Shown: positions 15,892 to 23,077 of the stretch, piece after piece
Layout: every line of letters begins with the position of its first letter
Position numbering within the stretch: the stretch's first letter is position 1
Origin: Verrucomicrobiota bacterium
GTDB lineage: Bacteria; Verrucomicrobiota; Verrucomicrobiia; Palsa-1439
NCBI GenBank assembly: GCA_016871575.1
Contig: VHCW01000046.1
Coordinates: 1 to 37,667 of the forward strand
Reading direction: 5' to 3'
Length of the DNA stretch: 37,667 bases
Program-made: the position numbers and the translations under genes
The notes under the pieces: generated by a model
What the model was told of the DNA's origin: nothing
Seen by the model: only the letters and a program-made list of their open reading frames with translations
The model's database searches: none

Positions 15892-15933
15892 GTGTAAACT
15901 CTTTTGAGACGATCGTCTCAAAAGAGTTTACAC
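15892..15933. repeat. Perfect 42-bp palindrome, copy 1 of a dispersed pair
   Basis: Each arm is 21 nt. The inner left arm TGTAAACTCTTTTGAGACGA (15893-15912) is followed without spacer by its exact reverse complement. The central 22 bp, TTTTGAGACGA plus its complement, are identical to the centre of the palindrome at 22216-22253. It lies between the divergent ThuA (start 15753) and PQQ-propeller (start 16013) genes. Both could read through its hairpin, or a dimeric protein could bind it. The 259-bp gap otherwise holds only the 22-bp palindrome and a poor -35-like TTGACG at 15975. Confidence 0.9.
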
Positions 15934-20251: not shown

Positions 20252-21247
20252 CTAGCGGCGACGCTTCGGTCGCACAATAGACGTTCTTGACTCTGTCATG
20301 GCTATTCTTGACTTCAGTTCCCGCACGGTAGCCGTGCCGGTGGTGCCGAGTTTGTGAATGACCACCGACGCAGCGGCGTTGGCCAACTCCAACGCTTCGC
20401 GCAATGTCGCGCCTGCCGCCAACGACGCAGCGAGGTTCGCCGTCACGGCGTCGCCGGCGCCGACGATGTCAATCGGGCCGCGCACCGGCAACGCGGGAAC
20501 CTGCTCGACGGTGCCGTCAGGCAACGCGCCAATGATGCCTTTCTCGGCAAGCGTCACAAACACCGGGCATTTGTTCCGACACGCCAGTTCGGCGGCGGAG
20601 CCGCAACCGGTTGCAACGAGTTCGTTGGCGTTCATTTTCAACGCAATCGGCGGCCAGCCGCGCACGCCGCGCCGGCTGTCGCCGATGATGAAATGCTTCG
20701 AGGCCAATTGGTGAATCGCCGACAAAAGCCTTTTCGTCACAACGCCGGTCTCGGCGACGTCCACTTGGTCGAGCAGAATTATTGCGTCAACCTTCGGCGC
20801 AAGTTCGCGGACAGACTTGATGATCGCGCTCTGGACGGCAACCGGCGTGGGCGTCCAGTTTTTCGTGTCGAGCCGGTTCAGTTCTTTGCCGGCGAGCATC
20901 GGTTTGCAGTAGGTGAACGTGCGGCGTTGGCGGGTCTGGAAAAAATGGTCGAGCGGCAGTCCGTCGAGGGCGCGGCGCAACTCGTAGCCTTCGCCGTCAT
21001 CCCCGCAGAAACCCACCGGCCAGATCGTGCCAATGCCGAGGGCGACAAGGTTGTTGAGAATGGTGCCGGCGCCGCCGGGCTGCGCGCGGGTGGCCACGAC
21101 ATTATGGACGGGCAGACCCGTTTCGAGGGAGGTCTCGCGCTTGGAAGGATCAATTTCGAGGTAACGGTCGAGACAAAAGTCGCCGACGACAGCGATGCGA
21201 AGTTTCCGGTAGCGACTGGTGATCGCGTTAAAGCGCGTAGAGTTCAT
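20252..21247 (-). CDS. PfkB-family carbohydrate kinase, HldE-kinase-domain-like
   Basis: 331 residues from ATG-21247. Ribokinase-fold motifs: RIAVVGDFCLDRYLEID at the N-terminus, QPGGAGTILNNLVALG (sugar-binding GG region) and GPIDIVGAGDAVTANLAASL with the catalytic Asp266. The opening and the PGGAG segment are closest to the heptose-7-phosphate kinase domain of HldE, here as a separate protein without its nucleotidyltransferase half, which in this cassette is a separate gene. It overlaps the upstream gene by 20 bp and precedes the epimerase by 10 bp. Confidence 0.87.
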   Translation of the reverse strand: MNSTRFNAITSRYRKLRIAVVGDFCLDRYLEIDPSKRETSLETGLPVHNVVATRAQPGGAGTILNNLVALGIGTIWPVGFCGDDGEGYELRRALDGLPLDHFFQTRQRRTFTYCKPMLAGKELNRLDTKNWTPTPVAVQSAIIKSVRELAPKVDAIILLDQVDVAETGVVTKRLLSAIHQLASKHFIIGDSRRGVRGWPPIALKMNANELVATGCGSAAELACRNKCPVFVTLAEKGIIGALPDGTVEQVPALPVRGPIDIVGAGDAVTANLAASLAAGATLREALELANAAASVVIHKLGTTGTATVRELKSRIAMTESRTSIVRPKRRR

Positions 21248-22202
21248 GGAGGAGGTTGTGGAGGAAAGCGACATTGTCGCTTTGGACGTAGTGCATCGTG
21301 CCGCCCATGCGGGAGAAACTTTTGCAGAAACGGAGGTAGTAGGCGGGGTTGGTCTTCGGCGGTTCGCCGGCGGACCAATCCCAGTTGCCGCCGTCCTGAA
21401 TGTCCACGACATAGATGGCGTGGCCGCTGACGATGGGACGGCCGGCTTGCAGGCGGAGATTGTTGACACAACTCAGCGCTTTCTCGAAGACCTGCGGCGC
21501 CATAACAGCGGAGCCGATGGAAAGCACCACACCGCCATCGAGTGTGTCAATGGACGCGGCGAGCAACCGGAAATCCACAGCGGCGGCTTGGCCAATAACG
21601 GCGCCATCGAAGTTCGGATGGCAAGCGATGATGTCGTAGCCGATGCCGGGATGAACGGTCATTGGGACACCGTGGCGAAACGCGGACGAGAGGATCGAGG
21701 CGTGTTTCCAGCGATGCTGGGTGACTGTGTCCTCGGCGATGAACCGTCCGAGGGCAGCGCCGTAGCCTTCGCCGCGCTGGTTGCCGGTTTGGAGCGCGAG
21801 GTGGAGGTAGCGGCCGGTTTCGTCCCAGGCGCCGAAGGTGCCGGTGACGACGTTCTTGCGGACGCTTTCGGTCGAGCGTCCGAGCCATGCGTATTCCCAA
21901 TCGTGGATCGAGCCGGCACCGTTGGTGGCGAGGTGGGTGAGAAGGCCGCGCGCCATCATGCGGTCGAGAAGTAACGCGGCGCCGTTCCGCAACAGGTGTG
22001 CGCCGTACAGCAACATGACACCCGCGCCGCGTTTGCGGGCGGCGATGATTTTGGTAGCGCAATCGCGCACGCGCGCCATTGCGGAACACGGCGGAGGCGG
22101 CGCGTCGGGCGCGACCAGGATATCCTCGACGCGGGTGAGGCTTTCGCGCTCGGCAAGCGGGCGTACCTTGAGTTTCGTGATGTTGAGAGGCGTGAGTTTC
22201 AT
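21228..22202 (-). CDS. Conserved-looking protein of unknown function in the sugar cassette
   Basis: 324 residues from ATG-22202; an ATG at 22220 is also possible but would start inside the palindrome. I do not recognise a characterised family. Strong motif-like segments suggest an enzyme: GVMLLYGAHLLRNGAALLLD, THLATNGAGSIHDWEYAWLG, GNQRGEGYGAALGRFIAED, VPMTVHPGIGYDIIACHP and GGVVLSIGSAVMAPQVFEKAL. The G-A-H, N-G-A-G-S-I-H-D and G-S-A-V repeats resemble a Rossmann-like fold, perhaps distantly like deoxyhypusine synthase; this is a weak guess. It sits between HAD and PfkB genes and is translationally coupled to PfkB. The start has no Shine-Dalgarno; a perfect palindrome lies 13 nt upstream. Confidence 0.8.
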   Translation of the reverse strand: MKLTPLNITKLKVRPLAERESLTRVEDILVAPDAPPPPCSAMARVRDCATKIIAARKRGAGVMLLYGAHLLRNGAALLLDRMMARGLLTHLATNGAGSIHDWEYAWLGRSTESVRKNVVTGTFGAWDETGRYLHLALQTGNQRGEGYGAALGRFIAEDTVTQHRWKHASILSSAFRHGVPMTVHPGIGYDIIACHPNFDGAVIGQAAAVDFRLLAASIDTLDGGVVLSIGSAVMAPQVFEKALSCVNNLRLQAGRPIVSGHAIYVVDIQDGGNWDWSAGEPPKTNPAYYLRFCKSFSRMGGTMHYVQSDNVAFLHNLLHELYAL

Positions 22203-22215
22203 GGCAGGAAAAAGC

Positions 22216-22253
22216 GTCAACTATTTTGAGACGATCGTCTCAAAATAGTTGAC
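22216..22253. repeat. Perfect 38-bp palindrome, copy 2 of a dispersed pair
   Basis: Arms of 19 nt (left arm GTCAACTATTTTGAGACGA) without spacer. Against copy 1 the inner 22 bp are identical, and the only differences in the outer arms are an A-to-C and a C-to-A on the left with the matching T-to-G and G-to-T on the right, so both copies stay perfectly symmetric. This copy covers the stop codon and last dozen codons of the HAD gene and ends 13 nt before the start of the next gene. Confidence 0.9.
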
Positions 22254-23077
22254 AGCAGTGAAATGGCATCGCGGAAATCGGGGATGACGATGTCGGCGCC
22301 AACGCCGAGGAGGCGCTGACGTTTCCATTCGTCGAACTGGCCGGAGCCGTTGTGGGCTTCGTCGCTGGCGACGGCGACGGCGAGACCGCCGACTTCCTTG
22401 GTGTTCTCGATCTCGACATAGCCGTCGCCGAAGGAGAGAAGTTGTTCTCCGTAGATGTTGTTTTCGCGGAGGATGCGTTCGATGACCATTTTCTTGGAAA
22501 ACTTCTTATAATCATCGAGCGCGCCGTAGATGCGCGTGCCAAAGTAGCGAGTGACATCGAGGAGGTCGGCTTCCTGTTTGACGAATTGTTCGTCGGTGCC
22601 GCTGGCGAGGTAGAGCGGCAGGCCGCGGCGCTGGATTTCTTCGAGCAACGGTCGAGCGGCGTGGACAAGCAAGTCATCGGGCTTGATCTCGCCGTTGCGG
22701 AGCTTCTCGATGCGTGACTGGATGCGCTCGTTCAGGCGGCGAAGATACTCGTGTTTATACCAAAGCGGCTCGCGCGGTTCGCCGCCGCGTTCGCGGATGC
22801 GCTCGGCAAGCTGGATCATCTGGTAGATGGTCTGTTTGCCGTTGAGGCGCATGATGTCGTCGAGGGCGAGACGGAGCCTGTCGGCGTCGGTTTCACCGGG
22901 CAGTGACGGCAGCATTTCAGCGAACATGGGGGCCATGACATCGGGCCAGCCTTCGCGGATCAGCGAGAGCGTGCCGTCGAAGTCGAAGAGCACGTGGCTG
23001 ATTTCGGGCCTCGGCGCGAAACTTGGTGCAAATTCGATGTGTCCGGTGGCGATCACAATCCGAGTGAGTAGCGACAC
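22217..23077 (-). CDS. HAD-superfamily phosphatase
   Basis: 286 residues from a GTG at 23077 (a GTG at 23056 is an alternative; neither has a clear Shine-Dalgarno). HAD motifs: VLFDFDGTLSLIREGW (motif I, Asp32 and Asp34), LPLYLASGTDEQF (motif II), a Lys-rich KKFSKKMVIER (motif III) and FGDGYVEIENT (motif IV). A helical cap domain lies between I and II, as in phosphoglycolate or beta-phosphoglucomutase-type enzymes. As first gene of the sugar cassette it may remove a phosphate from a bis-phosphorylated sugar, the job GmhB does in heptose synthesis; that is inferred. The last dozen codons, after DAISLLS, are written by the palindrome at 22216-22253, so the C-terminus may have been altered by its insertion. 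Confidence 0.85.
   Translation of the reverse strand: MSLLTRIVIATGHIEFAPSFAPRPEISHVLFDFDGTLSLIREGWPDVMAPMFAEMLPSLPGETDADRLRLALDDIMRLNGKQTIYQMIQLAERIRERGGEPREPLWYKHEYLRRLNERIQSRIEKLRNGEIKPDDLLVHAARPLLEEIQRRGLPLYLASGTDEQFVKQEADLLDVTRYFGTRIYGALDDYKKFSKKMVIERILRENNIYGEQLLSFGDGYVEIENTKEVGGLAVAVASDEAHNGSGQFDEWKRQRLLGVGADIVIPDFRDAISLLSTILRRSSQNS

Follow-up and report, generated by a model that had tools for sequence, protein, structure and literature searches.

A REP-like association between dispersed palindromes and genes for a Cas2-like relative of PaaX in Verrucomicrobiota

Introduction

The RAYT tyrosine transposases are the known example of a dedicated gene that partners dispersed palindromes, and elements of the Y1 type move without target-site duplication. 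We know of no system in which an enzyme with the Cas2-like fold serves dispersed palindromes. An unpaired GTAG or CGTC tag at one end is a feature of REP sequences, and the CGTC-tagged REPs are said to be apparently without a dedicated transposase (PMC3733652).

Here we describe palindromes that resemble REPs in their arrangement and that accompany a different protein. The window, a stretch of 37,667 nucleotides, is contig C46 of a 5.19-Mb, 257-contig MAG of a Verrucomicrobiota bacterium. A sequence-only reading of the window had drawn attention to two palindromes in it, and we have followed these through the host genome, its congeners and the phylum.

Results

Two perfect palindromes in the window

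The palindrome at 15892..15933 (42 bp; F1 family variant A, arm GTGTAAACTCTTTTGAGACGA) is a solo in a divergent intergenic region, and the one at 22216..22253 (38 bp; F1 family variant B, arm GTCAACTATTTTGAGACGA) is a solo between two minus-strand genes. No other short-range inverted repeat in the window comes near them in quality. The sequence-only reading held that both are perfect and spacerless, that they share an identical 22-bp core and that their arm differences are symmetric, and it was right on each point: the arms of 21 nt (15892-15933) and 19 nt (22216-22253) are 100% complementary with a gap of 0 nt, the core TTTTGAGACGATCGTCTCAAAA stands at 15902..15923 and again at 22224..22245, and every change between GTGTAAACTCTTTTGAGACGA and GTCAACTATTTTGAGACGA is mirrored in the partner arm. 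A perfect spacerless palindrome of 19-21 pairs is not expected to arise by chance in 38 kb. The RNA folding of both sequences is far stronger than that of shuffles (z -9.7 for 15892-15933 and -8.4 for 22216-22253).

The second palindrome reaches into a gene. The HAD-like hydrolase ORF at 22217..23077 (minus strand) takes its final codons and its stop from the palindrome, terminating ...AISLLSTILRRSSQNS* within it, and the next gene (21228..22202, minus strand) starts 13 bp past it. The same two genes are syntenic in G006, where the palindrome is absent and the HAD ortholog, with the C-terminus ...AVLQLLGVKPR*, overlaps the next start codon.

A dispersed family in the host genome

Close copies of the window palindromes number six in the host genome. 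The core is exact at C46 (2), C6 and C17 and has 1 mismatch at C4; the sixth copy, also on C4, has different arms. Variant A recurs as an identical 40-bp copy at G000:C17:42572-42611, and no exact element copy of it is present in the host assembly. Variant B recurs as a solo at C6:4878-4917 and at C4:36451-36490, where it is the upstream palindrome of a Cas2-like gene (L093); this gene is the F1 partner, and its downstream palindrome is a third F1 variant.

A scan for near-spacerless palindromes in 1.64 Mb (32%) of the host genome found at least 26 solos of ~40 bp, so that a genome-wide number of ~80 is an extrapolation from that portion. Together with the six close copies, these bear out the earlier expectation of more than two copies. 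The members of this wider population differ in sequence and share one anatomy, with ~20-bp arms and a core near the centre (TGAGACGA, TGAAACAT, TTGTTATAA, GTGAAATAG, TGAAACAA, GTGTAACAG, GGAACGA or GCTACAT). The palindromes are dispersed ~40-bp extragenic elements: 24 of the 26 solos are intergenic, and intergenic DNA makes up ~8% of the host sequence scanned. Their orientation classes (3 divergent, 5 convergent and 16 tandem, intergenic DNA being 27/15/59%) resemble random intergenic DNA and lack a promoter bias. We found no conserved one-sided tag in the palindromes of the host genome, G262 or G303, the arms being symmetric to the centre.

Several other origins were considered and set aside. 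The half-site, with 3 mismatches allowed, was never found outside palindromes in the host genome, and no single spaced inverted repeat came to light; the palindromes are therefore not the ends of a spaced, intact IS. Plasmid matches to the core are partial (E >= 0.5), and a match in IMG/VR lacks the palindromic arms and is no real relative. An assembly artefact was rejected on finding members in one-contig genomes (G092 L100 and G431 L141) and the same pattern in unrelated genomes.

Some further repeat features were seen in passing. One F3 solo, at L061:11623-11662, lies within a predicted coding region (a TilS-like ORF), and F4 solos occur as pairs ~160-330 bp apart at L055:11000-11363 and L175:8780-8985, reminiscent of REP doublets. 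Both flanks of the 26 host solos are C-rich when followed in the direction of the palindrome centre (~40% C vs 20% G), as are those of 20 solos of G262/G303; the local strand bias thus flips at the palindrome, perhaps reflecting a target preference. A composite stem-loop of the form TGTGGGGCAGGTTTGCAACCTGCC-N10-GGCAGGTTGCAAACCTGCCCCACA, unrelated to the palindromes, has at least 2 copies (L034:18081-18138 and L035:16120-16177). Stem-loop repeats that are rich in GC form further families (AGTACTCATCACGCTCCGCGTGATG... and GGCCGCGTCACCCGACGCGGC...; L025:19364, L061:323, L046:4588/10548/11661 and L184:8280) and are possibly the ordinary REP-like sequences of the host genome. Short palindromes with no link to a Cas2-like gene were also seen, of the AAAGATTCGCCCCGAAAGG type and, in G010, the GGGTTCGTTTTC type (L033:10309-10344, L075:19366 and L076:13525).

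Cas2-like genes bracketed by palindromes

Three palindromes adjoin genes for ~260-aa proteins with Pfam PaaX_M, described there as a 'central Cas2-like domain'. The host genome has 15 diverged ~260-aa genes of this kind (PF20803), encoding a winged-helix domain and the PaaX_M (Cas2-like) domain, and most of them have a palindrome just upstream and another, of matching type, directly past the stop. The bracketing palindromes lie ~0-90 bp from the coding region, with their centres ~820-940 bp apart (~860 bp for host pairs). Nearly all solo types of the host genome recur beside resident Cas2-like genes: F1 with L093, F2 with L097, F3 with L096, F4 with L098/L099, F5 with L094, F7 with L090, F8 with L086 and F9 with L087. 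G262, a genome of another class, has a single element, the arms of which are TGTTTCATTTAGCGTCACGA, and its ~15 solos are all of this one type, their 20-bp arms being sharply delimited.

A phylum-wide gene search that was blind to palindromes, pooled with earlier matches, gave 54 distinct genes. In 41 of the 54, at least one side has a palindrome with 12 or more net pairs, and in 29 both sides have one with 10 or more; among random control windows from the same loci, 4 of 586 reach 12 net pairs. The genes at L089, L107, L114, L142 and L145 have no clear palindromes. A search with a subfamily alignment returned four loci, all in MAGs of Verrucomicrobia or Lentisphaerae, and five canonical PaaX-like regulator loci on actinobacterial plasmids have no flanking palindromes of the kind. 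We regard the association of the palindromes with the Cas2-like genes as firm. Searches of an open-access library turned up no account of palindromes flanking PaaX or Cas2-like genes. The core TTTTGAGACGATCGTCTCAAAA itself is absent from 92 relatives and 387 phylum genomes. The sequence-only reading had proposed a new palindromic element of this lineage; this proposal is supported, and the system is phylum-wide, so that its restriction to the lineage falls away.

Mirrored change in the arms

The palindromes are symmetric over all 20 bp of the arm, and the variable linker is no exception. Under random re-pairing of arms within families, solos with identical arms are in excess both in the host genome (10 of 26, 5.7 expected, p 0.006) and in an unrelated genome (6 of 16, 1.9 expected, p 0.004). 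Arms agree better with their own partner than with the arms of fellow family members, the scores being 483 vs 455 expected for solos and 426 vs 367 for elements, and none of 2000 shuffles was as high. The agreement with the own partner and the excess of identical arms in two unrelated genomes make mirrored change a property of the class that extends beyond the pair in the window. The symmetry is nevertheless incomplete: arm mismatches per 20 average 3.0 in element-flanking copies and 1.4 in solos, the detection of which favoured good palindromes. Either selection or templated copying could produce this symmetry.

Occupied and empty sites

Empty-site alleles in relatives had been named in advance as a mark of such an element, and we found them in the congeners of G303, both at a solo site and at an element locus. 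At the solo site five congeners have, in the corresponding intergenic position, a palindrome whose type is that of their own elements, and other congeners have a short empty junction. At the element locus an element stands at the orthologous place in eight congeners; G184, G126, G150 and G447 lack both palindromes and the gene, and G442 has an apparent palindrome remnant. The orthology of one-locus elements across about nine congeners indicates that the genes are also stably inherited. In G283, the locus where congeners carry the element holds ~1.7 kb of different DNA (G283:C132:47638-49368). The insertion boundaries are not base-precise because the congeners are 75-80% identical, and direct repeats of 3-5 bp, such as would mark a target-site duplication, are not in excess at the flanks. 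What the ortholog comparisons document is that palindromes are gained or lost and change together with the protein, rather than a transposition event caught in the act or exact ends.

A PaaX-like protein that keeps the Cas2 Asp

The protein has three domains: a winged helix at the N-terminus, a Cas2-like domain in the middle and a PaaX-like domain at the C-terminus. PaaX_M and PaaX_C are recognised by Pfam, PF20803 scores above cut-off and no Y1 domain is detected by Pfam, while TIGR02277, the NCBIfam PaaX equivalog, gives 29.8-41.4 bits against a cut-off of 264.55. A structure model built from 25 sequences (pLDDT 84) predicts a fold that as a whole matches E. coli PaaX (8a39; Foldseek E 1.3e-9) and Rv0674, and a middle domain for which Foldseek returns Cas2 and VapD structures. 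The Asp of an FDLP motif after strand 1, the active-site position of Cas2, is kept in 54/54 family proteins and replaced in 5/5 canonical PaaX-like regulators, a small control set; E. coli PaaX and Rv0674 likewise lack it. The retained Asp suggests that the nuclease is active here and that the corresponding domain of the repressors is dead. Among the orthologous proteins at the G303 element locus, codon positions reveal purifying selection, with the Cas2 part the most conserved, and between G303 and its congeners the winged-helix part diverges more than the Cas2 part.

Discussion

Our findings make it probable that these palindromes and genes form a system like REP/RAYT, but with a Cas2-like nuclease that has no relation to RAYT, that binds the palindromes and that probably mobilises them. 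We infer the mobility from the palindrome-bracketed genes, the cognate types of the solos, the predicted fold and the retained Asp, the occupied and empty sites, the random-like orientation classes of the solos, the lack of a target-site duplication and the mirrored arms. In such a system the winged helix would bind the palindrome arms as a symmetric dimer, and a dimer of the Cas2-like domain would nick or cleave the palindrome at its centre, the substrate probably being a hairpin, either extruded or single-stranded. Cleavage at the centre could then let the palindrome alone, or the unit of palindrome, gene and palindrome, be copied into new intergenic sites. The solos, including the two in the window, would be non-autonomous copies served in trans, as REPs are by RAYTs. 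During mobilisation, or when a hairpin is repaired, one arm may serve as the template for the other; this would account for the perfect arms and for substitutions that are mirrored. A bolder proposal, which we put forward tentatively and with some doubt, is that the winged-helix/Cas2 nuclease is the mobility enzyme of an undescribed superfamily of palindromic elements, cutting the centre and copying the second arm from the first, and that the PaaX repressors are its exapted, catalytically dead relatives.

Not all of the data favour mobility. The palindrome type at one orthologous solo site varies by species and tracks the protein type of each genome, as selected binding sites would. This behaviour, the fold shared with the E. 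coli PaaX repressor, the palindrome just upstream of most of the genes and the greater divergence of the winged-helix part relative to the Cas2 part between G303 and its congeners would all suit PaaX-type transcriptional regulators whose operators are the palindromes, one autoregulatory and the rest a scattered regulon. We nevertheless think it unlikely that this is their role: it leaves the second palindrome, directly after the stop codon, unexplained, the solos do not favour promoters (3 divergent, 5 convergent, 16 tandem), the symmetry covers the full 20-bp arm with its variable linker, the Asp is invariant here and lost in regulators, and canonical PaaX-like genes are without such flanking palindromes.

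The palindrome might instead be a recombination site, at the centre of which a gene circle with one palindrome integrates into a resident solo, the solos being empty or excised sites. The inner arms of L086 and of L090 are identical and their outer arms alike, as a crossover at the centre would give, but this suggestive pattern is unsupported across 29 elements (inner-inner 3.2 vs within-palindrome 2.7-3.0 mismatches per 18). The two palindromes of L093 differ and each is self-complementary, and the empty orthologous sites of the L148 locus lack a palindrome, save for the one remnant in G442; all of this makes a recombination site improbable. Chances are slimmer still that the main role of the palindromes is that of a hairpin, in RNA or DNA, in termination or in the protection of mRNA 3' ends, with the gene association secondary. 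Although the hairpins are very stable and many solos lie between tandem or convergent genes, a U-tract is absent, palindromes occur also in divergent promoter regions and within genes, their types are specific to the resident Cas2-like genes, and G001, a congener without the gene, has zero copies.

If the protein does mobilise the palindromes, as the REP/RAYT-like reading holds, then Cas2-type nucleases are capable of moving DNA without the help of Cas1, and annotations of 'PaaX family regulator' across the phylum conceal a class of elements. The mirrored substitutions offer a direct handle on how palindrome symmetry is kept up.

Comparison with known systems

The absence of a target-site duplication sets the palindromes apart from DDE-type MITEs and is shared with IS200/IS605 elements, which also have one small gene between two hairpin ends. 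However, the present elements lack the Y1 HUH transposase, their palindromes are terminal and symmetric, and their solo hairpins are dispersed. They differ from a casposon in having no Cas1 homologue and room for one ~260-aa gene between the palindromes. The ferredoxin-like middle domain, with FDLP after strand 1, is like CRISPR-adaptation Cas2 and VapD-like nucleases, but here it is part of a fusion with a winged helix and a C-terminal PaaX domain, in a single-gene element without Cas1. The three-domain architecture and fold are those of the PaaX repressors (E. coli PaaX, PDB 8a39; Rv0674, PDB 3kfw), from which the present proteins are separated by the Cas2 Asp, kept here and lost there, by a TIGR02277 score far below cut-off, by flanking palindrome pairs that none of five canonical loci has, and by solos that, unlike repressor sites, are not concentrated at promoters. 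The CGTC-tagged REPs are likewise REP-like palindromes; they differ in their one-sided unpaired CGTC tag and in being found mainly in Alphaproteobacteria, and the available part of their description mentions no link to a PaaX-like gene (PMC3733652).

The closest likeness in organisation is to REP/RAYT (REPtron, TnpA_REP Y1 transposases). In both, extragenic palindromes of 20-40 bp are dispersed as solos, a cognate gene lies between its own palindromes, palindromes and resident protein correspond in type, the gene is vertically kept and a target-site duplication is absent; on these grounds the present system appears to work like REP/RAYT. In contrast to REP/RAYT, a winged-helix/Cas2-like relative of PaaX takes the place of the Y1 HUH enzyme, the symmetry of the palindromes runs through the centre without an unpaired GTAG or CGTC tag, and copies number in the tens here and in the hundreds there. 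Thus, with neither the enzyme nor the tag, the system is not a member of REP/RAYT, and what appears to be new in it is a REP-like architecture tied to an unrelated protein that has the Cas2 fold and keeps its active-site Asp.
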